Assembly (NCBI GenBank): GCA_018622495.1
Contig: CP076021.1
Location: forward strand, 744,001 to 808,000
DNA length: 64,000 nucleotides
Reading direction: 5' to 3'
Origin: Mycoplasmatota bacterium
GTDB lineage: Bacteria > Bacillota_I > Bacilli_A > Acholeplasmatales > Acholeplasmataceae
The notes beneath the pieces are model-generated. The model did not search any database. It had not been told where the DNA came from and saw nothing but the letters and a program-made list of their open reading frames with translations. This document shows positions 13,530-54,078 of this stretch, in pieces; position 1 is the first letter of the stretch, and each line of letters begins with the position of its first letter. The translations under genes were made by a program, and so were the position numbers.

Positions 13530-13567
13530 AACACAACGATTATATATAATAAAACTGGGTGATAATA

Positions 13568-15006
13568 ATGAATCATGTTGATATAGATAAATATTTCAAA
13601 CCTGACTTAAAAAAGGCAAGAAAAAGAACAAAAAATACAATTAAAGAAGTATCATTTAAATTAGGTGTAACCCACGAACAAATGGGATTACATAAAAAAT
13701 ATCAAATACACACATATGGATGTCAAGGCAATGAAGCTGATGGTGAAACCATGGCAGGTATTCTTGAAATGATGGGATTTACGAAGACAGATGTTGAACG
13801 AGAAAGTGATGTTATCATATTAAATACATGTGCTATTCGTGAAAATGCTGAAAATCGTATTTGGGGAGAACTCGGCAGATTAAAAGCATATAAACGTGAA
13901 AACCCTGATCTAATTTTGGGATTAGCGGGGTGTATGGCTCAAGAAGAGAATGTTGTTGAGCGTGTATTAAAAAAATATCAACACGTTGATATTGTTTTTG
14001 GTACGCATAATATTCATAAATTACCTGAATACATGGAAACTGCAATGTTTTCTAAAGAACGCGTGATTGAAGTATATTCTAAAGAAGGCGACATTGTAGA
14101 GAATTTACCAAAAACAAGAAATCATCAATATAAAGCTTGGGTTAATATTATGTTTGGCTGTGACGAATTTTGTACTTACTGTATCGTACCATATACAAGA
14201 GGAAAAGAACGTTCTAGATCTAAAGAAGAGATTATTGAAGAGGTGAAATCTCTTGTTGATCAAGGTTATGTAGAAATTACAGTGCTTGGACAAAATGTTA
14301 ACGCATATGGTAAAGATTTTAAAGATAAAGATTATACATTTGGTGATTTACTAAGAGATTTAAATGAAACAGGCATTAAACGCATTAGATTTACAACTTC
14401 TCATCCTCACGATTTAGATCGTAAAACGATGGAAGCTATTAGAGATTGTGAACATGTGATGCCATTTTTCCATCTTCCTGTACAATCTGGAAGTAATAAA
14501 GTATTAAAAAAAATGAATCGACATTATACTAAAGAATCTTATTTAAAAGTTTTAGGTGAATTAAAAGAAATGGTTCCAGGCATATCAATTACGACAGATA
14601 TAATCGTTGGGTTCCCAGGGAAACAGAAGAAGATTTTGAAGAAACGCTTGATTTAGTTGAAAAAGCAGCATTTGAAGGTGCATTTACATTTGTTTTCTCA
14701 AAAAGAGAAGGTACACCTGCAGCAACTTTTGAAGATGATACACCTGAAGAAGAAAAGAAACAAAGATTATATCGTTTAAATCACCTAATTAATGATGGTT
14801 ATTTAAACGGTAACGAACGTTTTGTTGGTGAAATAGCACAAGTGTTAGTTGATGGCGTTTCTAAGCATAATGATGAAGTGTTAGCTGGATACAGCCAACA
14901 TAATAAACTTGTTAATTTTATTGGAGATAAATCACTAATTGGCAAACTTGTTAATGTTAAAATAACAAGTGCTAAGACTTGGTACTTAAAAGGTGAACTC
15001 ATATGA
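13568..15006 (+). pseudogene. miaB: tRNA methylthiotransferase MiaB, single frameshift
   Basis: The gene covers a full MiaB: N-terminal UPF0004 domain with TYGCQGNEADGE and NTCAIRENAE, radical-SAM motif CDEFCTYCIVPYTRG, and a C-terminal TRAM domain (FVGEIAQVLVDG ... SAKTWYLKGELI). The first frame breaks at GFPG, then KQKK and a stop at 14656. The +1 frame carries straight on ETEEDFEETLDLVEKAAFEG to 15006. Loss of one G in the CCAGGG run near 14620 explains it exactly. MiaB adds the 2-methylthio group to i6A37, whose first step is made by MiaA at 21342. Either the gene is recently dead or the read has an indel. ATG at 13568 suits the GGGTGAT site. Confidence 0.85.
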
Positions 15007-41871: not shown

Positions 41872-42378
41872 ATGGCATCAAAAATAACTACAAGAATTAT
41901 TGTGGACGTCAAAAATGGTGATGTATTTGATGAAAATAGATTAACCAAAATAAATGGTGAAAGAAGAAAGAGTAATACAGGCACATATTTTTTATGTAGT
42001 TCTAAAGACTATTCGGAGTATTTACCTTTTTTTAGTATATGTGATAATTATAAATTTGAAATAGATAAAATATCCGAGTATAGAATAGTCTTTAAAGCGA
42101 AATTCTATAAAGATAAAGATAATTATTTAGATAAAATGAATAATTTTGATAAATATTGTGATATTCTTGTCAACACTGATTACAATAGTACAAATATTAA
42201 TTTACGACAAAATGATACAAGATATTTTCTAAGATTCACAAATAATAAAGAGGAGTTAGTGGATGCTTTTCGTCACATACTGTATGGTGATTTGTCATCT
42301 ATTGTTTTAGAGTTTGATGGTAATATTTGTAGTATATATCCAGTTGTCAAATATGAAGAAAAACTATTTTTTGATTGA
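41872..42378 (+). CDS. First gene of the defence cluster, unknown function
   Basis: 168 residues, not recognised. Starts at ATG after AGGAGGGG, 9 bases from queH. It is rich in lysine, aspartate and tyrosine with alternating strands (TTRIIVDVKNGDVFDEN; EYRIVFKAKFYKDKDN; RYFLRFTNNKEELVDAF) and ends in a strand-rich block (SSIVLEFDGNICSIYPVVKY). No membrane helix, helix-turn-helix or nuclease motif is evident. Being first in the operon it could be a specificity, adaptor or control protein; that is a guess. Confidence 0.65.
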   Translation: MASKITTRIIVDVKNGDVFDENRLTKINGERRKSNTGTYFLCSSKDYSEYLPFFSICDNYKFEIDKISEYRIVFKAKFYKDKDNYLDKMNNFDKYCDILVNTDYNSTNINLRQNDTRYFLRFTNNKEELVDAFRHILYGDLSSIVLEFDGNICSIYPVVKYEEKLFFD

Positions 42379-42389
42379 GAGGGGAAAAA

Positions 42390-45131
42390 ATGGGACTTGA
42401 AATACAAAGTAAAGAAAACAATAAATACATAGTTTGGATAAAAAGTGCATTAGAAAATGGTATAAGTTGGGAAAAAATAAAGTTTGGGAATAATGATAAC
42501 ATTGAAGATTTAGTGATGTTTCTAGAGGAACAAAAAAATAGAAATTTCTGGAAAATTGACACTGAAGGATGGTGTACATTAGTAGATAAATATAGAAATT
42601 TTGTAAAAACATGTAAAACAGTAATTATTTCACATCCCGATAATCCTAGTGATATTGTAATACCAGAGCATGGTATTTTTTCAGCTTACATGGATAAATT
42701 AAGAAAGAATAAATTTTCAGATCTTAGTTTAGGAAATATTGAAGCGTCAACTGTTGATATTTTATCAAGATTAAATGAAAAGACAAAGCAAGTTGATCCT
42801 GTAAGAGGATTAGTTATGGGTAATGTTCAATCTGGTAAGACTGCGAATATGGCTGCTCTCATGGCTCTTGCTGCGGATTATGGATATAATATGTTTATTG
42901 TGCTTTCAGGTACTATTGAAAATTTAAGAATACAAACAGAAGAAAGATTAATACGAGACTTGAATAATAGTACAACAAAAGTCCAATTCATTCTATTAAA
43001 GCATTTATCTGCAAAAAGATCTGAAGTTGATTTATCAAACTTATATCTTGAGGAAAATTCTAATAAAAGATATTTAAATGTTTGTTTAAAAAATTCAAGT
43101 AGACTTAGAGATTTATTGAATTGGTTAAACAAAGATCAAAGGGCAAAAAAACATCTAAAGATTTTAGTTATAGATGATGAAGCAGATCAAGCAGGGATCA
43201 ATACTGCAAATCTTGATAAGAAATTACAAACTAGAATAAATAATCTTGTTACTAAATTGGTTTTTGCAGGACACAATAAGCCAGGTGGTGTTATTGTGCC
43301 TTATAAAGCTATGAACTATATTGCATATACAGCAACACCATATGCAAATTTTTTAAATGAAGCAAATGATTCATCTTTGTATCCGAAAAATTTTATCGCT
43401 ACTTTAAATCTATCGAGTGAGTATTTTGGACCGCAACAAATATTTGGTTATGATGAAGGTGAATACGAAGGGTTATCAATAATTAACGAAATAGGAACTG
43501 ATGATCTTGAAATTATTAAACATTATTTAGAAATGCCTAAATCATTATCGGATGCTATAAGTTGGTTTTTATGTACAGTTGCTGTCTTTAGATATTATAA
43601 AATAAATAGTCCTGCTACAATGTTAATTCATACTAGTCACAAACAAAATGATCATAAAAATATGGCGGACTTAATTAAAAATTTCTTTAATATAATATCA
43701 AAAGATAAGAATTATATAAATAAAATAGAGCAAATATGGAATGATCAAACACAAAAATTTTCTATTGATAAATTTTATGAACAATATAGTGACTATGGGA
43801 TAGAAAAAGAATTCATAAATAAGTATCCTTACTTTCATGAATTAAAAGAAGAGATAGAAAGACTTATTAAAGGGAATTTAAATAATATTCTTTTAGCTGA
43901 AGATAAATCTTTTAAGTTCACTAAGAGTGTACATCTATGTGTCGATAACTGTGCAAATAATAAAAATGAAGATGATATTCACTTAAGACTTGCATATCCT
44001 AAAAAAAGTGATAATCTTAATTTTTCATCAGCATTTATTGTGATAGGCGGATCAACTTTATCAAGAGGATTGACACTTGAAGGACTTACGACAACTTACT
44101 TTGTTAGAAATTCTCAACAAGCTGATACTTTAATGCAAATGGGTAGATGGTTTGGGTATCGTAGAGGCTATGAATTGTTACCTAGATTATGGTTATCTAA
44201 TAAAACGACGAGTCAATTCGAATTTTTATCGCAGCTTGATTTTGATCTGAGAAATGAGCTAAGTAGCATGCAGATGAAAGGTAAAAAGCCGAGTGAGTAT
44301 GGACCAAGAATAAATAAACTTCCACAAATTTCGTTTCTTAAAGTGACTAGCAAAAAAAAGATGCAAAATTCAATCATTGTTGAAGGGGGTTTTAATGACT
44401 ATAAAGGACAAACTACAGCAATGTATAGAGATGATACAATAATAGAGAGCAACTTCAAAAAAACATATAATTTTATTAAAAACCTTGGAAAAAACAATCA
44501 GGATTTCAAGAATAGTTTTAATCATAATTCATATGTTTGGATTGATGTTCATTATAATAAAATATTTGATTTTCTGTTATCATTGGAATATCCAGCGATA
44601 AATTCAGTGCATTTAGATATGAAAGAAATTAGCAATTGGTACAAAAAAAGTTATAGTCATGATGAATTGGATCAATGGAATGTTGTTGTACCAGGATTGA
44701 ATGAAGCAGTTAACAAAGTAGATTTTGGAAATATAAAATTGAATTTAATTAATCGTACAATTTTTGAAGATAGTGATGAAAATATTATGAAATTTGGATC
44801 AATAACTGATCCTAAAGCTAAAAAAATGGATGTTGATGAAAGTAAAATTATAAATTTTAATTCAAAAGACAGTTATAAAATCCATAGATTAAAAGCAGGA
44901 TATGATAAAACCCCGGTATTAGTTATTTATGTCATTGATAAAAATAGTTCGGTGAAACATAGTTTTAAAAATTCTAGTAGAAAATCTAGAATTGATTTAA
45001 ATGTGAAACAACATATAATTGGTTATGATATATATATACCATACGGTGATGAAGCAAAACAAAAAATAGAAAGTAAAATTACAGTTAGACTTGATTTCGA
45101 CATTAATGGGGGAGATATAGATGAAATGTAA
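42390..45131 (+). CDS. Z1-domain SF2-type helicase/ATPase
   Basis: About 913 residues. Walker A MGNVQSGKTANMAAL lies near residue 145-158, Walker B LVIDDEADQAG near 258, a motif III-like YTATPYANFL follows, and the Z1 region has VIGGSTLSRGLTLEGL, VRNSQQADTLMQMGRWFGYR and RGYELLPRLWLS, which carries the motif VI arginines. Z1 ATPases occur almost only in predicted restriction systems beside MORC/MutL ATPases and are thought to translocate on DNA. ATG at 42390 follows GAGAGGGG; an in-frame TTG at 42375 overlaps the site. The end overlaps the GHKL gene by 11 bases. Confidence 0.85.
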   Translation: MGLEIQSKENNKYIVWIKSALENGISWEKIKFGNNDNIEDLVMFLEEQKNRNFWKIDTEGWCTLVDKYRNFVKTCKTVIISHPDNPSDIVIPEHGIFSAYMDKLRKNKFSDLSLGNIEASTVDILSRLNEKTKQVDPVRGLVMGNVQSGKTANMAALMALAADYGYNMFIVLSGTIENLRIQTEERLIRDLNNSTTKVQFILLKHLSAKRSEVDLSNLYLEENSNKRYLNVCLKNSSRLRDLLNWLNKDQRAKKHLKILVIDDEADQAGINTANLDKKLQTRINNLVTKLVFAGHNKPGGVIVPYKAMNYIAYTATPYANFLNEANDSSLYPKNFIATLNLSSEYFGPQQIFGYDEGEYEGLSIINEIGTDDLEIIKHYLEMPKSLSDAISWFLCTVAVFRYYKINSPATMLIHTSHKQNDHKNMADLIKNFFNIISKDKNYINKIEQIWNDQTQKFSIDKFYEQYSDYGIEKEFINKYPYFHELKEEIERLIKGNLNNILLAEDKSFKFTKSVHLCVDNCANNKNEDDIHLRLAYPKKSDNLNFSSAFIVIGGSTLSRGLTLEGLTTTYFVRNSQQADTLMQMGRWFGYRRGYELLPRLWLSNKTTSQFEFLSQLDFDLRNELSSMQMKGKKPSEYGPRINKLPQISFLKVTSKKKMQNSIIVEGGFNDYKGQTTAMYRDDTIIESNFKKTYNFIKNLGKNNQDFKNSFNHNSYVWIDVHYNKIFDFLLSLEYPAINSVHLDMKEISNWYKKSYSHDELDQWNVVVPGLNEAVNKVDFGNIKLNLINRTIFEDSDENIMKFGSITDPKAKKMDVDESKIINFNSKDSYKIHRLKAGYDKTPVLVIYVIDKNSSVKHSFKNSSRKSRIDLNVKQHIIGYDIYIPYGDEAKQKIESKITVRLDFDINGGDIDEM

Positions 45132-47109
45132 GATCGAAAAACATGTAAATATGTCTTTTACAGGTTCTAATGTATTAGCACAAATTCAGGATAATAGTAC
45201 ACCTAATATTGACTTATTAGTTAGAGAATCTATACAAAATAGTGCTGATGCAATACTAGATAATAAAGAATTTGCAAGAATAAATTATAAAGTTGGAGAA
45301 TTTGACACTGAACTATTCAAAAATATGTTTAGAAAATTTGAATACATAGATGAAAACAAACTTGATAATTATGGAAAATATTTGAGTATTTCTGATGAAA
45401 ATACCACTGGACTACTTGGCGATCATAAAAAGTCAAAAAACAAACCTCAAAATTTATATAATTTAGTTTACGATATTATGAATCAAACCGGAAAGAAAAG
45501 TGATGCTGGTGGTTCTTGGGGGATAGGGAAATCAGTCTACTATAGATTTGGTAGGGGATTTTGTATCTATTATTCAAGAACACTAGAAAACAATGAGTTT
45601 ATAGATAAATTAGCAATAGTTTTTATAGAAGATGAAAATAACGAAAATAACATCATTATAAATAACAATAATCGAGGAATTGCATTTTTTGGTGATATTG
45701 ATTACAATAGTGAAAATGAACCACCAATGCCAATATATGATAGGAATGAAATTAGAGAAATATTGAGTATTTTCAAACAAGATTTATACGAAAATGAAGT
45801 CACTGGTACTGTAGTAATTATTCCGTATTTAAATGAGAAAAAATTTTTAAAGAAACTTAATGATGAAGAAAATTATTGGTGGAAAAACGATTTTAGTAAA
45901 ACTATAGAAATTGCTATTCAAAGATGGTATTTTCCGCGATTACAAAACAAAAAATTTAAAGGTAAATATATTATTGTTGGTATTGATGATGAACCTGTCA
46001 AATTAAATCATTTTTTTGGCCAATTACAAAAAATGTACAATGGAGATGATGAAAAATCATATCATCGAAAAATAAGAAGTAAAAATCCAAAAATTGATCT
46101 TGGAGATTTATATATAAGGAAATTTGAATCAAGTGAATTGTTTATGAATAAACCTTATTCATATCCTGATCCGCTTACAATGCTTGATTTATTTAATGAA
46201 AGAGATGATTCCCTTCCAATTATTGGATTAACTAGATCTTCAGGAATGATAACTTCGTATGATAGTAAATTTAGAAACGCATCATTAAATGATAATGAAT
46301 ATTTAATAGGTATTTTCAAATTAGACAAAGAGGAAAAATATCAAAATGAAAGACTTGAAGAATACATAAGAGCAACTGAAAAAGCTAACCATAAAGATTG
46401 GCAAGATGCAAATGTTGAAAAGTTCCCTCAATTATCTGATAAGACTCCAGTAAGAAAAATATTCGGACAAATAAATTCTGTTATAATGTCAAAATATAAA
46501 ATTTCAGAAGTTGAAATTAATGATAGTTCGGACTCTAAATTAAGAAAAATTTTAGGTAAGTTGTTGATGCCACCTTCAGGTTTTGGGGATGGTGCAGATG
46601 TTGGTCGTAAAAAGCCGGGGGAAAATAAACCTAAAGCGACAAAAAAGAAAAAATCAGTGATCTTGCAACTTGGATTTGAAAATGGTAGATTATTATTTCA
46701 AACAAGTACTTATTTAGAAGAAAGTGACAAGATAGATTTTGTTTTTAAAATCAAATCCGGAGCAAAAACTTATAGTTTTGTTGAGTGGATAAATATGGGG
46801 TTTGAACTTCCATGCAAGCTATACGATATGAGTTTAAGTGGTTTAGTAATTGGAAAAGAAAAAATAAAGGGAAGTAAAAAAATATTGTTTGAGACTAAAA
46901 TGGGAGATAAATTACTCGCTAAATCTTTGAAAATACAATTCCTTAAAACATTATCTGGTATCCCTTATGGTATTTCAATGACGAATGTTAATATTGAAGA
47001 TGAAGTTATCAAAATTATTTTCACAGTAAGTGTTGAACCTTTGGATTCTACATATAGTATCTCAATAGATTCATCTATAAAAAAAGATTTAGAAGGTGAA
47101 TATAAATGA
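45121..47109 (+). CDS. MORC/MutL-type GHKL ATPase
   Basis: 662 residues. Motif I is LLVRESIQNSADAILD (the N-box asparagine and catalytic glutamate), motif II ISDENTTGLLG and motif III GGSWGIGKSVYYRFG near residues 129-143, with TGTVVIIPYL after that. This is the Bergerat fold of the MORC/MutL group found in restriction clusters; these dimerise on ATP and probably clamp DNA. A lysine-rich linker (GENKPKATKKKKSV, about 500-520) separates a beta-rich C-terminal domain. It overlaps both neighbours. Confidence 0.85.
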   Translation: MKCKIEKHVNMSFTGSNVLAQIQDNSTPNIDLLVRESIQNSADAILDNKEFARINYKVGEFDTELFKNMFRKFEYIDENKLDNYGKYLSISDENTTGLLGDHKKSKNKPQNLYNLVYDIMNQTGKKSDAGGSWGIGKSVYYRFGRGFCIYYSRTLENNEFIDKLAIVFIEDENNENNIIINNNNRGIAFFGDIDYNSENEPPMPIYDRNEIREILSIFKQDLYENEVTGTVVIIPYLNEKKFLKKLNDEENYWWKNDFSKTIEIAIQRWYFPRLQNKKFKGKYIIVGIDDEPVKLNHFFGQLQKMYNGDDEKSYHRKIRSKNPKIDLGDLYIRKFESSELFMNKPYSYPDPLTMLDLFNERDDSLPIIGLTRSSGMITSYDSKFRNASLNDNEYLIGIFKLDKEEKYQNERLEEYIRATEKANHKDWQDANVEKFPQLSDKTPVRKIFGQINSVIMSKYKISEVEINDSSDSKLRKILGKLLMPPSGFGDGADVGRKKPGENKPKATKKKKSVILQLGFENGRLLFQTSTYLEESDKIDFVFKIKSGAKTYSFVEWINMGFELPCKLYDMSLSGLVIGKEKIKGSKKILFETKMGDKLLAKSLKIQFLKTLSGIPYGISMTNVNIEDEVIKIIFTVSVEPLDSTYSISIDSSIKKDLEGEYK

Positions 47110-48062
47110 AAACCTTTAACTTTTATGAAACAATAAATGATGAAAAATATTTAATAAACGGAATATCCTGTGTTGCAGATACGCTAAAGATCGAAATAAA
47201 TAAAGAATTTTATGATTTTATCAATGATAAAAAAATAATTATAAACGAAAATAGTGTTTTAGGCATAGATGATAATATTACATTTACATTAGATGATCCT
47301 AATGGGATTTGGGAATCAAATAAAGTAACTTTAAATTTAAATATTAAAATTAATTCAATTAGAAACCTTTTTGGAGAAACATGTTATGTTTATAAAGATG
47401 CAATTTTAGGAATTGGTGTAGAATATAAATCTAAAATGTCCAGAATTAGAGAAGCAGTTAAGATAGCATCTTTGACAAATAAGGATATTAATCTAGATGT
47501 GACTAAAACTATTGAATTATATAATTTGAAGAGTGATATAGAATTCAAATTGATTGTTTATATTGAGGGGAAAGGTTCAATTGGAGGTTCCAAAAGTTTT
47601 GCTAATGAAATAGGATTAATTATTGCCAATTTTAATTTTTTAAAGTTGAAATTTGAAGGAGAATCTTCTTTATTTCCAATATCTCATTTTATAGAACAAA
47701 ATGGCCCTCTTTGGAAATTGGAATGTAAGTATACAGATATTTACGAAGACCAGTTTTCAGATGAAAACGTAAGAATACTTATAAATAAAGCTAATAAAAG
47801 TTATCAATTTATACAACAAGGCAATTCAAACTATAATCCATCATTTTTATCTGAAGTTCTATCATCTGCAGTAGCAACACTAATAGCTAATATTTTAAGA
47901 GATGAAAATGATAAAATATATTTTGAAAAAGCAAATTCGGAAAACAGTATTTTAAGCTTATTAAGGTATTTTCAGGAAAAATTAGGTTTTGATTATCGTA
48001 ATGGCTATATTAAATTATTCATCTCTGTAAAAAAATATTTTGATAAGGAGTTTAAATTATGA
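47106..48062 (+). CDS. Unknown beta-rich protein of the defence cluster
   Basis: 318 residues, not recognised. The first 180 residues are strand-rich (KVTLNLNIKINSIRNLFGET; VYKDAILGIGVEYKSKMS), followed by an alpha/beta part (ETCY, FLKLKFEGESSLFPISHFIE) and a helical C-terminus (LSSAVATLIANILRDENDKI; SILSLLRYFQEKLGF). No catalytic motif is evident. It overlaps the GHKL gene and the next gene by 4 bases each (ATGA), so it is probably produced in a fixed ratio with the ATPase and may be its partner. Confidence 0.65.
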   Translation: MKTFNFYETINDEKYLINGISCVADTLKIEINKEFYDFINDKKIIINENSVLGIDDNITFTLDDPNGIWESNKVTLNLNIKINSIRNLFGETCYVYKDAILGIGVEYKSKMSRIREAVKIASLTNKDINLDVTKTIELYNLKSDIEFKLIVYIEGKGSIGGSKSFANEIGLIIANFNFLKLKFEGESSLFPISHFIEQNGPLWKLECKYTDIYEDQFSDENVRILINKANKSYQFIQQGNSNYNPSFLSEVLSSAVATLIANILRDENDKIYFEKANSENSILSLLRYFQEKLGFDYRNGYIKLFISVKKYFDKEFKL

Positions 48063-48769
48063 CAATCAGAACATTAAAAAAAGAACATTCAGAAAAGCAT
48101 CTAAGAAAGTTTATTGAATCACCGAAAGATTTTTTTGAAAATTTGTCAAATGACTATATCAAAATAAGAAATGAACTGAAAGATTTGTATCTTAATTCAT
48201 GCGAATTTAGAGACTCAGGTAAATTAAATCAGTATCAAACTGATTTATCGTTTGCACTTAAAATTTATAAATACTTTAATGATTATTCATGGTTTGATGT
48301 AACACGTGCATCTGATTATGGCTTTTGGAGATATATATGCGTACAAGTAGTACCAGATATTATTCAAGATAGACATGGAATCAATGATTACTCATATTAT
48401 TATTCGAAAAATGTAAGAATATATTTACCTGCAATGTGGTGGTATATACATATGTCATATCAGGGGGATATAAATAAGACGAAAGTTACTTTAAGTGGTT
48501 TGAATACTGATTATATCTTACAACTAGTCGAGAGACCAGGTAAGGACGGTTTATATGTTTCGATTTCTAGATTAATAATGTATTATATTGGTATTTTACC
48601 AAAAAATATATTAGAAAATAAAATTGACAATAAGAATTTACTTAGAAGAGTTTTAATACAAAATACTTCAAGGATGAATAATTATAATTTAATATTTGAT
48701 CATAATGAAGATTTTTATGTTCAAACATTGTTTTTGAAATGTGGTGTAAAGGTGAAAGATTATGAATGA
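48059..48769 (+). CDS. Unknown protein of the defence cluster (possibly DUF6339-like)
   Basis: 236 residues, mainly helical. Distinctive conserved-looking blocks are SWFDVTRASDYGFWRYICVQVVPDIIQDRH, shown here in parts as DYGFWRYICVQVVPDI, then RIYLPAMWWYIHMSY. The FWRY...VPDI and WWY pattern recalls the DUF6339 family described around defence genes, but I cannot confirm it. There is no nuclease motif. It overlaps both neighbours, by 4 and 8 bases. Confidence 0.6.
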   Translation: MTIRTLKKEHSEKHLRKFIESPKDFFENLSNDYIKIRNELKDLYLNSCEFRDSGKLNQYQTDLSFALKIYKYFNDYSWFDVTRASDYGFWRYICVQVVPDIIQDRHGINDYSYYYSKNVRIYLPAMWWYIHMSYQGDINKTKVTLSGLNTDYILQLVERPGKDGLYVSISRLIMYYIGILPKNILENKIDNKNLLRRVLIQNTSRMNNYNLIFDHNEDFYVQTLFLKCGVKVKDYE

Positions 48770-49661
48770 TTTGAGAAGCGAACTAATAAGTTTGGAAATG
48801 TTGCCAAAAAACATGATAAAAAATATTTCGTCAAGGAATGGACAATATAAGACTTTTATTGCTAAAGATGTTAATACTTATGGTGTAGCTATTATGAATC
48901 CAAACAATAACATAGTAAACGAAAAATTTTTGAATGTATACATAAAGAATATGGAGTTTACAATTTCGGATATGACGCTTCCTGTTTTGTATTTGTTTAC
49001 TAATAACGATATTGAAATAATACATTTTGTGTTTTTAGCAGAAAGTTTTTTGGAAATTTCAAATGAAAATACAATTATTGAAGAACCATTACTTTGGATT
49101 GAGCAATGGAAAAATATGCTTGGTGATTCAAAAAAACGGTATAAGGTATATGATGTTATAGGAGAATTAATCACTTTAAATTATTGCTTAGAGAAAAAAC
49201 AAGAAGTACATTGGCAAGCTTCACAAATGGGTGTTCATGATATCGAAAGTGAGCATGAAAGTATAGAAGTTAAATCAAGTATAAAAAGAAGTGAAACGAG
49301 AATAACGATAAATAGCGCTTTTCAATTGTTCAGTGAAAAACAAGAATTTTTGTATTATTGTAGATTTGAAAGTAATCCAATGGGTACATATAGTATTAAT
49401 TCACTGTCTAAAAAAATAGCTGAAGCAGGTTATAATATAGATAAATTAGAAATGGAATTGTCTAAGCTGGGTTATCCTAAAGGAATAAGCACTAGAGAAA
49501 ATAGTTTTAATTTGATAGAATTTAGAAAATATAAAATAGAAAAAGAAACATTTCCTCAAATATCATTAGAAAAAATCAATGAATTATCACCAAAAAAAAA
49601 TATAGTATCATATACTATTGAGTTAGATTTATCGGGGATTCAGTATAAAAACATTATTTAA
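48762..49661 (+). CDS. PD-(D/E)XK restriction-type nuclease (DUF4420/PF14390-like)
   Basis: 299 residues. The nuclease core is visible: DVIGELITLNYCLEK supplies the early glutamate helix (about 128-142), HWQASQMGVHDIE the catalytic aspartate (about D158), and IEVKSSIKRSETRITIN the E-x-K pair (about E168/K170). This is the arrangement of the PD-(D/E)XK motif family PF14390, often encoded beside Z1 and MORC genes. It is the likely DNA-cleaving subunit of the cluster. The two methylases follow directly. Confidence 0.78.
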   Translation: MNDLRSELISLEMLPKNMIKNISSRNGQYKTFIAKDVNTYGVAIMNPNNNIVNEKFLNVYIKNMEFTISDMTLPVLYLFTNNDIEIIHFVFLAESFLEISNENTIIEEPLLWIEQWKNMLGDSKKRYKVYDVIGELITLNYCLEKKQEVHWQASQMGVHDIESEHESIEVKSSIKRSETRITINSAFQLFSEKQEFLYYCRFESNPMGTYSINSLSKKIAEAGYNIDKLEMELSKLGYPKGISTRENSFNLIEFRKYKIEKETFPQISLEKINELSPKKNIVSYTIELDLSGIQYKNII

Positions 49662-49675
49662 TTAAGAGGGTATGT

Positions 49676-50767
49676 ATGATGAAATTAGCAACAGTATTTA
49701 GTGGTGTAGGTGCTATCGAGCAAGCACTACTAAAAAAGAATATTAAACATGATATAATATTTGCCTGTGACAATGGAGAGAGATATATAGATGTTGATGA
49801 GCAAGAAATCCTTAATAAAACTGAGAGTATGACTGAATTTGAAAAACAATCTTATATAAAAGAGATCTATGATGAGACAGGAAAACCTAATTATGTAAAA
49901 AAGACATATTTTTTAAATTATAAGGTTAAAGAAGAAAATTGGTATGAAGATATAAGATTTATCAATGGGGATATATATAAAAACCAGGTAGATTTATTTG
50001 TTGGTGGAAGTCCTTGTCAAAGTTTTTCTCTTATGGGGAAAAGAGGAGGATTAGAGGATACTAGAGGTACGCTATTCTATAATTATGCAAATTTGATAAA
50101 ACAAATTCAACCTAAAGTATTCGTTTTTGAAAATGTACTTGGTATTCTATCGCATGATGGGAAAAACACGTGGCAAACAATAGAAGGAGTATTTGAAGCT
50201 CTTGGTTATAAAATCTTTGGACCAAAGACTTTAAATGCAGTTGATTTTGGAATACCTCAAAACAGAAAAAGAGTCTTTGTTGTGGGATTTAAAAATAAAA
50301 ATGTTGAATTTAAATTTCCTACTGGAAACAAAGAGATTTTGCATATGTCAAACTTTTTTCATGAAAAAAAAAGAATACCAGCAAAACACTATCTAGGAGA
50401 AAAAGGATTTAAGTTTGTTACTAGCCCTAAATATAGAGGTCGTGCTAGAGTGAATAGAGACATCATTCGTACACAAAAGGCGAATCAACAGTTCAACTGG
50501 AATGGAGATTTTATATTTGAACCTCTTGAAAAAGTTGAAATGGATGCAGAGATTATGGGACGAGCTTATGTAGGAAAATTTAATGGTGAAAAAGGTGTGA
50601 TTAGACAAATGACACATAGAGAATGCTTTAATTTAATGGGGTTTCCTAAAACATTTAAAATAGATGTACCAAATATTCAAGCCTATAGACAAGCTGGGAA
50701 TTCCATTGTTGTGAATGTATTAGAAGCCATAGTTGAAGAAATAATGAAAGTTGTTGATTTTAAATGA
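49676..50767 (+). CDS. C5-cytosine DNA methyltransferase 1
   Basis: About 363 residues. Motif I ATVFSGVGAIEQALL, motif IV GGSPCQSFSLMGKRGGLEDTRG with the catalytic cysteine near 113, motif VI FVFENVLGIL, motif VIII PQNRKRVFVVGF, and motifs IX-X RECFNLMGFPKTF/RQAGNSIVVNV are all present. Between motifs I and IV there is an insert of about 60 residues (EILNKTESMTEFEKQSYIKE and following) shared with methylase 2. Start ATG 49676 or 49679; AGAGGG spacing favours 49679. It should protect host DNA from the cluster's nuclease. The stop overlaps methylase 2. Confidence 0.93.
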   Translation: MMKLATVFSGVGAIEQALLKKNIKHDIIFACDNGERYIDVDEQEILNKTESMTEFEKQSYIKEIYDETGKPNYVKKTYFLNYKVKEENWYEDIRFINGDIYKNQVDLFVGGSPCQSFSLMGKRGGLEDTRGTLFYNYANLIKQIQPKVFVFENVLGILSHDGKNTWQTIEGVFEALGYKIFGPKTLNAVDFGIPQNRKRVFVVGFKNKNVEFKFPTGNKEILHMSNFFHEKKRIPAKHYLGEKGFKFVTSPKYRGRARVNRDIIRTQKANQQFNWNGDFIFEPLEKVEMDAEIMGRAYVGKFNGEKGVIRQMTHRECFNLMGFPKTFKIDVPNIQAYRQAGNSIVVNVLEAIVEEIMKVVDFK

Positions 50768-51876
50768 AAAAAATTAAATTAGCAACTGTATTTAGTGGCA
50801 TCGGATCACCAGAGTTTGCACTAAGGAGATTAAATATTCCGCATGAATCAATATTTGCTTGTGATAATGGAAATAGAATGATACAATATGATGAAGATTC
50901 TATTAAAAAGCAATTAAATACATTTGAAACTATTGATGAAAAAATAGAATTTGTTGAAAATGTATACAAAAATTCAACAAGAAAAACTAATTTTGTTCAG
51001 CAATCTTATTTAGCAAATTATGGAGAAAACACAAAATATTTTTTTCAAGATATTAAATTTATTGATGGTAAAGATTTTATCAATAAAATAGATTTATTTA
51101 TTGGAGGAAGTCCTTGTCAAAGTTTTTCTACTGTTGGTCATGGTTTAGGTTTAGATGATGCACGTGGAACTTTATTTTATGATTTTGCTAGACTTGTAAA
51201 AGAGATAAAACCAAAGGTGTTTATTTATGAAAATGTTAGAGGTTTATATACACATGATAAAAAAAACACATGGGATATTATTACTGGAATTTTTGAAAAT
51301 TCTTTAAGTGAATACACTATTAGTCATACTATTCTGAACTCTTTAGATTACGGAATCCCACAAAATAGAAGAAGAATATTCGTAGTAGGTGTCTTAGGAA
51401 ATAAAAAATATAAGTTTCCTTCACCAATCCCACTTAAGTTTAATCTGAATGATTTTAGAATTGAAAATTGTAGTTTAGGTAATTTTAGTAGCAATAAAAA
51501 AGGCGATATTATTATTAGAAGAATTCCCGGAAAAGTCGATTCTAAATATACTCTATCTCCAAGTGTTAAGAAATATGTAATGTCTTCAGGAACAAAGTCT
51601 TTTTACATTAAACCTAAAATAGATTTAGAAATAGCTAGACCTATTCTTGCTACCATGGGTAATAAACATCGTGCAGGAGTAGATAATTATTTTTCCCTTG
51701 GCAATGGAGATATAAGAATGTTGACAGAAAATGAAGCTTTAAGATTAATGGGTTTCACGGATGATTTCAAGGTTGTAGTTTCAAAAAATCAAATGTATCA
51801 TCAAGCTGGAAATAGTATTGTCGTTGATGTAATGATGGCAATGATTAAAGAATTAAAAATACAAGAATTAATATAA
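50764..51876 (+). CDS. C5-cytosine DNA methyltransferase 2
   Basis: 370 residues, paralogous to the gene before it: ATVFSGIGSPEFALRRL, GGSPCQSFSTVGHGLGLDDARG (C118), FIYENVRGLYTHDKKNTW, PQNRRRIFVVGV and RLMGFTDDF/HQAGNSIVVDV. It has the same insert after motif I. The target-recognition part (about 235-310: RRIPGKVDSKYTLSPSVKKY and after) is clearly different from that of methylase 1, so the two probably methylate different sequences or opposite strands of an asymmetric site. The start overlaps methylase 1 by 4 bases. Confidence 0.93.
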   Translation: MKKIKLATVFSGIGSPEFALRRLNIPHESIFACDNGNRMIQYDEDSIKKQLNTFETIDEKIEFVENVYKNSTRKTNFVQQSYLANYGENTKYFFQDIKFIDGKDFINKIDLFIGGSPCQSFSTVGHGLGLDDARGTLFYDFARLVKEIKPKVFIYENVRGLYTHDKKNTWDIITGIFENSLSEYTISHTILNSLDYGIPQNRRRIFVVGVLGNKKYKFPSPIPLKFNLNDFRIENCSLGNFSSNKKGDIIIRRIPGKVDSKYTLSPSVKKYVMSSGTKSFYIKPKIDLEIARPILATMGNKHRAGVDNYFSLGNGDIRMLTENEALRLMGFTDDFKVVVSKNQMYHQAGNSIVVDVMMAMIKELKIQELI

Positions 51877-52577: not shown

Positions 52578-54078
52578 ATGAAAAGCACTCAATTAACACA
52601 TAATTATTTTAACGCAAAACAATTAAAATTACCACTATCTTTAGACATTTTAATACCTTTTGATAGTGAAGTGAGAACATTTGACGAAGTATTTTCAAAA
52701 TTGGAGGTAGGGAAATACTTAAAAACCGAAAAAGATCCAAGAGGAAGAATCGGATATCATAAAGTCAACATGTTAAAATTGATATTGTTTTGTCGAGATG
52801 GAAAAAATTCAAAGTTTAAGAGCGATGGAAAAAGCTGCAAGACATGATATTAGAATCATGTGGCTAACAGATGAACTTAAACCAAGTCATCAAGCGATTA
52901 AAGATTTCATCGACAGACATTTAGTTGAAGGTATCAAAGACATCTTCTATGAACTTTCAAAATATCTCGTTGACAAAGAAAACATCAATACTGATATCAT
53001 ATATATTGATGGAACAAAAATAGAATCAAGTGCGAACAAATATACATTTGTATGGAAAAAATCAATCCTCAAGTTTAGAGATAAACTATATAAGAAAATA
53101 ACAAAAACGCTTAAAACACTTAATGATCGTTATCAATTAGAAGGCATCTACTTTCCAATTGATGAAAGCTATGAGCTATCATATTTAGAACGTATCAAGA
53201 GATTTTTAGAAAAAGAGATTCATAAACATTCAATTAAATTTGTTTATGGTAAAGGAAGACGAAAAACAGCATTACAAAGAGATCATGAACACATTGATAC
53301 GTATATAGAGAAATTAAAACAATACACCAAAGACTTAAAGATTATGGGTAATGATAGAAACTCATATGCAAAAACAGATGTAGACGCTACATTTATGCAT
53401 ATGAAAGAAGATCATATGAGAAATAGTCAATTAAAACCAGGCTATAACATTCAAATCGGTGTATCAGATGAATATATATGTCATCTTGATATATTTAGTG
53501 AACGCAGTGATTATAAAACACTGATACCCTTTTTAGAAGGATATAAAGATAGATATGGTTATTATCCAACCTATCCAGTAGCAGATGCTGGATATGGTGG
53601 GCTAATGAATTATCGGTATTTGAAGTTTAATGATATGAAACTTTATCAAAAATATGGGATGTATAGTAAAGATACGCATGACAAGAAACGTATCAATGAT
53701 CCATATTTCACGCATAAACTTATAAAAAATGGTGATGATTATGTGGGTACCAATGGTGATAGACTTAAATACCTTTATAAAAATAATAGGGGCAACGATG
53801 TCTATCTTCTACCAAGCGGTAAACGTAAAGAGATAAACAAAGAAAATATAGGTTATCAAAAAGAAGTTATTAAAAATCTATCATCACCATTAGGTATAGA
53901 ACTTCGCATGCAAAGATCGATACAAGTTGAAGGTGCATTTGGTGTACTTAAAACTGCATTTGGATTTAGAAGATTTAGAAGACGACATACTCAAAATGTA
54001 AGATTAGAGTTATTTTTGGTAGCCATAGGGTATAATCTATCAAAATATCACAATAAAAGGTATAGAATTACACATTAG
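52578..54078 (+). pseudogene. IS1182-family transposase, frameshifted
   Basis: The N-terminal frame (LTHNYFNAKQLKLPLSLDIL ... RIGYHKVNMLKLILFC) is the DUF772-like domain of IS1182 transposases. It leaves frame near 52790, and the next frame continues MEKIQSLRAMEKAARHDIRI and covers the DDE domain: TDIIYIDGTKIESSANKY, PVADAGYGGLMNYRYL and IQVEGAFGVLKTAFGFRRFR. A single indel splits it. The C-terminal frame is long and undisturbed, so the damage may be recent. Confidence 0.85.

Follow-up and report, generated by a model that had tools for sequence, protein, structure and literature searches.

A Z1 helicase island with a paraMORC2-type ATPase and two companion proteins as a candidate ATP-dependent restriction–modification system

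Genes of the island and their genomic setting

The window, by which we mean the whole 64,000-nucleotide stretch of Mycoplasmatota DNA that was analyzed, contains the eight-gene island listed in Table 1. The preliminary description of this DNA had claimed eight co-oriented genes, and all eight open reading frames do lie on the forward strand between 41872 and 51876, with no internal stop codon. From the Z1 gene through to M2, the successive junctions measure −11, −4, −4, −8, +14, and −4 bp (negative values being overlaps). P1 lies 9 bp from queH, the left neighbor of the island, and is separated by 11 bp from Z1 if the latter starts at ATG 42390, which is preceded by the ribosome-binding site GAGAGGGG and was preferred over the TTG.

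Table 1 Genes of the island, with window coordinates and the basis of each assignment
Gene or product	Coordinates	Strand	Remarks
P1	41872..42378	+	168 aa; family-less, rare accessory
Z1-type SF2 helicase/ATPase (motor)	42390..45131	+	PF10593, 1.7e-58; listed ORF start is TTG 42375
MORC-like (paraMORC2-type) GHKL-motif ATPase	45121..47109	+	motifs, ExxxH, PDC-M33A
P4	47106..48062	+	318 aa; conserved subunit, family-less; predicted β-sandwich with C-terminal helices
P5	48059..48769	+	236 aa; putative divergent DUF6339, predicted all-helical
DUF4420 PD-(D/E)XK nuclease	48762..49661	+	PF14390, 1.3e-16
C5-cytosine methylase M1	49676..50767	+	PF00145, 2.4e-66
C5-cytosine methylase M2	50764..51876	+	PF00145, 9.4e-61

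The Z1, PD-(D/E)XK, and C5-methylase motifs proposed earlier were borne out, as the catalytic motifs are all intact and the expected Pfam families matched the Z1 protein, the nuclease, and both methylases. The motifs comprise Walker A GNVQSGKT149, DDEAD267, TATP319, and DTLMQMGRWFG584 in Z1, and GEL134, HD159, and EVK169 in the nuclease. M1 and M2 both carry PCQSF and QNRxR, with ENV at position 152 in M1 and IYENVRG in M2; each combines the PF00145 match with the PCQ, ENV, and QxRxR motifs by which a type II C5 methyltransferase is recognized. These two are the only C5 methylases in the host genome, a location that would suit a modification island that has become domesticated or inactive and serves mainly for methylation (epigenetic regulation). 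We regard this as highly improbable, given that every restriction-side gene is intact and retains its catalytic motifs.

The anticipated Pfam HATPase match to the MORC-like ATPase was absent, and neither this protein nor P1, P4, or P5 gave any Pfam match above the cut-off. The ATPase nevertheless contains the GHKL motifs in order (ExxQNSxDA36, DxxTxGLxG92, GGSWGIGK130, and TGT228), with key positions invariant across 29 sequences. Its ExxxH motif (E420 and H424, in the C-terminal part of the S5 region) is invariant in 29/29, and is given as a paraMORC2 feature in the available text of Iyer et al. (PMC2292703). The PADLOC model PDC-M33A matched 28 of the 29 family members; the match of the window ATPase was at 1.8e-13. 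When the family was compared by hhalign with MutL, the E-value was 0.055, below significance albeit in the correct register at the N box; comparison with classical MORC gave 0.3, also below significance, although the comparison of classical MORC with MutL was significant at 8e-8. It is the motifs that carry the putative GHKL membership of this protein. The MORC-type assignment of the preliminary description thus stood as regards the ordered GHKL motifs, but the invariant ExxxH points to paraMORC2 rather than to MORC proper.

No informative family model for P4 was found in Pfam, PADLOC, or NCBIfam. Its AlphaFold2 model (pLDDT 80) is a β-sandwich with C-terminal helices, for which a fold search returned weak matches to UNC119/RhoGDI-type β-sandwiches (E about 5e-4, TM 0.25–0.40); these are too weak to assign a function and indicate the fold class only. 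P5 appears to belong to DUF6339 as a divergent member, since 15 of 29 sequences of its family matched PF19866 (best 6.7e-55), with no match for the window P5 itself at 0.01. Similarly, some members of the P5 alignment matched PADLOC PDC-M33C and the window P5 did not. The all-helical AlphaFold2 model of P5 (pLDDT 91) is confident but found no match in the PDB or in the viral folds of BFVD, and its fold thus gave no clue to function. P1 has a single homologue, 41% identical and likewise directly upstream of Z1 (locus L013, 9409–9936); a 392-genome search returned weak matches only, which are probably due to chance, and no homologues were found in viral contigs or plasmids. A relationship to the small c14 protein of loci L008 and L016 was rejected, as hhalign gave no signal and a score under those of the controls.

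The 1.6-Mb host genome, Acholeplasma-like in its gene content and size, contains one Z1 gene. In a sister species, synteny of the left flank extends through queH, after which an unrelated 877-aa gene is present in place of the island as far as the contig end. The slot behind queH is therefore variable, which would agree with horizontal acquisition of the island. The start of the 877-aa protein (L142, 99–2732) resembles a PLD-domain helicase, as judged by eye, which suggests a defense hotspot. Close relatives carried by phages or plasmids were looked for and rejected, with no ATPase match in viral contigs and phages and one distant match on a plasmid. On its right, the island is flanked by a gene for a deoxynucleoside kinase and by a transposase. 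The kinase, which has a patchy distribution in relatives (9 of 41 genomes, host counted), was not seen alongside the system in other genomes. The transposase (DDE_Tnp_1, window 52578–54078) is split into two overlapping reading frames and is probably a frameshifted insertion sequence. Elsewhere in the window, the frame of miaB (13559–14990) breaks near 14,620, where a 365-aa reading frame stops early and the remainder continues in another frame, which may reflect either a frameshift or a sequencing error.

Recurrence and co-divergence of the core proteins

We surveyed 84 Z1 loci with iterated HMMs; these comprised 80 loci from a Z1-alignment scan of genome contigs, three genomes found earlier, and the window, and 83 are independent, as one locus entered through two collections, once as L048 and once as L009. 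The scan was seeded with Z1 proteins of the type found here and ranked by similarity, so the counts that follow are not natural frequencies. Across many phyla, the ATPase was found in 59 of the 84 loci, P4 in 56, and P5 in 56, and neither P4 nor P5 occurred in any locus that lacked the ATPase. Only four ATPase loci are missing P4 or P5, three of them near contig ends. The median spacing, both between the ATPase and P4 and between P4 and P5, is a 4-bp overlap. Recovery of the same gene content in more than 50 loci of other genomes places the cluster far beyond chance. The three uncharacterized proteins had been expected to co-occur with the Z1 and MORC-like genes, which held for P4 and P5 (each in 56 of 59 ATPase loci) but not for P1, which has a homologue in one other genome only and was therefore rejected as a core subunit. 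We refer to the ATPase, P4, and P5 as the trio.

Two gene orders prevail: Z1–ATPase–P4–P5–(methylase)–nuclease in a class found mainly in Firmicutes, and Z1–nuclease–ATPase–P4–P5 in a class of Proteobacteria and Actinobacteria. In the 49 full loci, a distance matrix was obtained for each of the five core proteins (Z1, the ATPase, P4, P5, and the nuclease), and any two of these matrices were correlated with Spearman coefficients of 0.81–0.87, to which shared ancestry contributes as well as interaction. The same five proteins correlated with the methylase of their locus at 0.19–0.29, a value that is lowered in part by differences between loci in the kind of methylase and by the presence of several at one locus. 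The co-occurrence of all eight families, which the preliminary description had put forward for survey, is accordingly narrowed to the five co-inherited ones, with P1 rare and the methylases not tracking the others. Since these five recur in several phyla, they represent a widespread candidate DNA-defense machine and not a one-off arrangement.

In the Z1 tree, the window groups with L013, L008, and L016 in one clade (SH-aLRT 99). Presence of the trio requires 3 changes on this tree, against a mean of 23 for shuffled labels, and presence of classical MORC requires 2, against a shuffled mean of 20; these small numbers indicate two old and stable Z1 classes. Of the 25 trio-less loci, 23 encode a classical MORC; this protein usually has about 490 aa, and its gene usually precedes Z1 immediately. 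An AIPR protein is added at many such loci, among them the Sinorhizobium locus L095, an arrangement also seen in MZA.

A few loci depart from these patterns. Two Bacteroidota loci (L022, 9328–12772; L045, 6247–9724) pair a trio-clade Z1 with only a 217–225 aa protein (MADxIKVTFPDG...), and no nuclease, ATPase, or methylase was detected nearby, the L022 locus ending just after Z1; a two-gene system is possible. A Chlorobiaceae MAG (L023, 2117–18142) contains a tandem duplication, with two ATPase–P4–P5–nuclease sets around one Z1. At L047, L059, and L088, the trio system adjoins a classical-MORC/AIPR system, two of the three with two Z1 genes.

The ATPase, a 288–356 aa protein in the position of P4, and a DUF6339-type protein were also found together without Z1, at L012, L103, L104, and L105, which indicates that other chassis can make use of the trio. 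These loci, and the single PADLOC candidate that covers both the ATPase and DUF6339, could be taken to mean that the island combines two loosely coupled modules merely travelling together, namely a complete CglI-like restriction–modification system (Z1, DUF4420, and methylases) and a separate trio unit equivalent to PDC-M33. We consider this unlikely, because co-divergence between Z1 and the trio (0.85–0.87) is as tight as within the trio, the genes overlap, the trio is flanked by Z1 and the nuclease in the class found mainly in Firmicutes, and the trio-less Z1 loci have, with two exceptions, classical MORC in its stead. A single system built around the five core proteins is our preferred reading. 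We propose more tentatively that paraMORC, P4, and DUF6339 may constitute a portable three-protein ATPase module, a DNA clamp that would license cleavage in different restriction chassis.

Two of the Z1-less loci have further features. On a Halomicrobium urmianum plasmid (L012, 1–11909), two paraMORC genes diverge, each with a weakly P4-like neighbor, and a C5 methylase is encoded between them. At L105 (5321–17133), the trio lies beside a 1777-aa protein and a gene that, by eye, resembles a Dam-type methylase.

Exchange of the nuclease and the methylases

Four loci (L030, L031, L038, and L039), which form one supported Z1 subclade, lack DUF4420 and encode an NgoFVII-type PLD nuclease directly after P5. 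A B3-like DNA-binding domain was detected with this nuclease in three of the four, weakly so in L038. The corresponding models, PF09565 and PF20731, matched only in relatives such as L030, the window having DUF4420. The resulting PLD-B3 architecture is that of the R proteins of CglI and NgoAVII, and its presence in the nuclease slot is our strongest lead to the mechanism. When identities were examined segment by segment, no hypervariable recognition region clearly stood out in any core subunit; by identity, P4 is the most divergent (0.35), followed by DUF4420 (0.37), and Z1 is the least divergent (0.48).

On the methylase tree, M1 and M2 belong to sister clades, and L008 and L016 contain separate orthologues of each; the two thus look like products of an old duplication that have stayed together. 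At L013, one full-length methylase groups with M2, and the other match covers only 187 aa. The tree otherwise resolves position-specific clades, one of them nested between P5 and the nuclease. The methylases are modular, and the paired arrangement is a feature of one subclade; the paired C5 methylases of the preliminary description are confirmed by Pfam but are not general to the family. Two adjacent C5 methylases serve one restriction system in the BsuMI and LlaJI type of restriction–modification, as here, although the restriction side there is based on a McrB-like GTPase in place of Z1/MORC. Near 25 trio loci there are genes for a protein cluster that matches Vsr, the nuclease that repairs 5-methylcytosine deamination; no Vsr was found in the host genome.

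Relation to known systems and a proposed mechanism

The core ideas were predicted earlier, by Iyer, Abhiman, and Aravind in 2008 and by the PADLOC candidates PDC-M33A/C. The available text of the former describes a ‘third type’ of MORC/paraMORC2 operon, with Z1 plus MORC/paraMORC restriction, and proposes that bacterial MORC relatives loop DNA within restriction systems (PMC2292703). Shared with those operons are a Z1-type SF2 helicase with DThhQxuRhFG, an E-D-ExK nuclease, a GHKL-S5 ATPase (putative here), Dcm, Vsr, and paraMORC2 with ExxxH, whereas P4 or DUF6339 subunits, a PLD-B3 replacement, and a paired-methylase subclade do not appear in that text as available. The window ATPase and relatives of its P5 match the M33A and M33C models of the PADLOC system, which differs in being a candidate only; P4 matches no PADLOC model, and here the genes lie within a Z1/DUF4420 restriction–modification core.

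MZA shares distantly related Z1 and DUF4420 proteins, but the window scores (244 bits against NCBIfam MzaC and 38 bits against MzaD) are far under the equivalog cut-offs of 1500 and 420. Those cut-offs, together with the absence of an AIPR-family MzaE among the eight proteins, rule out membership of MZA, the trio here replacing classical MORC/AIPR. CglI, NgoAVII, and BceSIV likewise combine a Z1-containing SF2 ATPase, a nuclease, and a methylase (PMC4267653, PMC5737866), but the window has PD-(D/E)XK instead of PLD-B3 and adds the trio and a second methylase. The gene list of CDBH8_0988–0994 in Corynebacterium diphtheriae BH8, comprising Z1, DUF4420, a Dcm-like methylase, and three unclassified proteins, is also similar, but that island has an EcoRII-like nuclease too (PMC5379612). 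In the open-access literature searched, we found neither the five-gene unit, nor P4, nor a function for DUF6339 described, and no experimentally characterized paraMORC2 complex. The earlier suggestion of an undescribed composition can therefore be kept for the five-gene unit and P4 within that literature, but not for the ATPase and DUF6339, already PADLOC candidates.

On balance, we think it reasonably likely that the cluster is an ATP-dependent restriction–modification system with a five-subunit restriction machine, one that would probably be CglI-like. The multi-subunit, ATP-driven system first envisaged is thereby retained through its co-inherited core, with P1 outside it. CglI is a methylation-sensitive ATPase that cleaves asymmetric sites and translocates on DNA after binding an unmethylated site (PMC4267653, PMC5737866); it works without any MORC partner, which leaves the role of the trio unconstrained.

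We infer the following biochemistry, as well as an anti-phage activity and assembly into a single physical complex. M1 and M2 would place 5-methylcytosine at target sites in the host, and, because two paralogous methylases are kept side by side, each would probably modify its own strand of an asymmetric site. On unmethylated incoming DNA, this site would be found by the nuclease subunit, namely DUF4420 in the window and PLD-B3 in relatives. That subunit would recruit Z1, which, if it acts as CglI does, would translocate along the DNA at the cost of ATP. The least certain step is that of the trio, which may act as a clamp or licensing module gated by ATP; it would hold or loop the DNA and allow cleavage only once the motor and the nuclease engage productively. 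The PD-(D/E)XK domain would then make the cut.

An alternative assigns the trio a sensory role of the abortive-infection or Type IV-like kind, in which it would detect infection or modified or invaded DNA and turn the nuclease loose on DNA of every kind, the methylases serving only to keep it silent. In sister Z1 systems, the position of the trio is indeed filled by classical MORC and, often, by AIPR (abortive infection phage resistance), and there are other contexts in which trios are found without Z1. We nonetheless view this as fairly unlikely: no toxin-like domain was detected among the eight gene products (the sole Pfam match bearing a toxin name, that of P1, fell far under the cut-off), and the frequent C5 methylases, often with Vsr, argue for site-based discrimination between self and non-self.

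For the restriction–modification reading that we favor, the consistent five-gene unit, with its two specified partner proteins, offers a handle for testing the DNA-looping idea of 2008. The survey also separates two old Z1 restriction classes, one with classical MORC, often accompanied by AIPR, and the other with paraMORC, P4, and DUF6339, and the exchangeable nuclease slot provides a guide to which parts carry the chemistry and which may control it. If the portable clamp proved true, the family would form a separate class of ATP-dependent restriction machines and offer a minimal bacterial model of MORC ATPase action on DNA.
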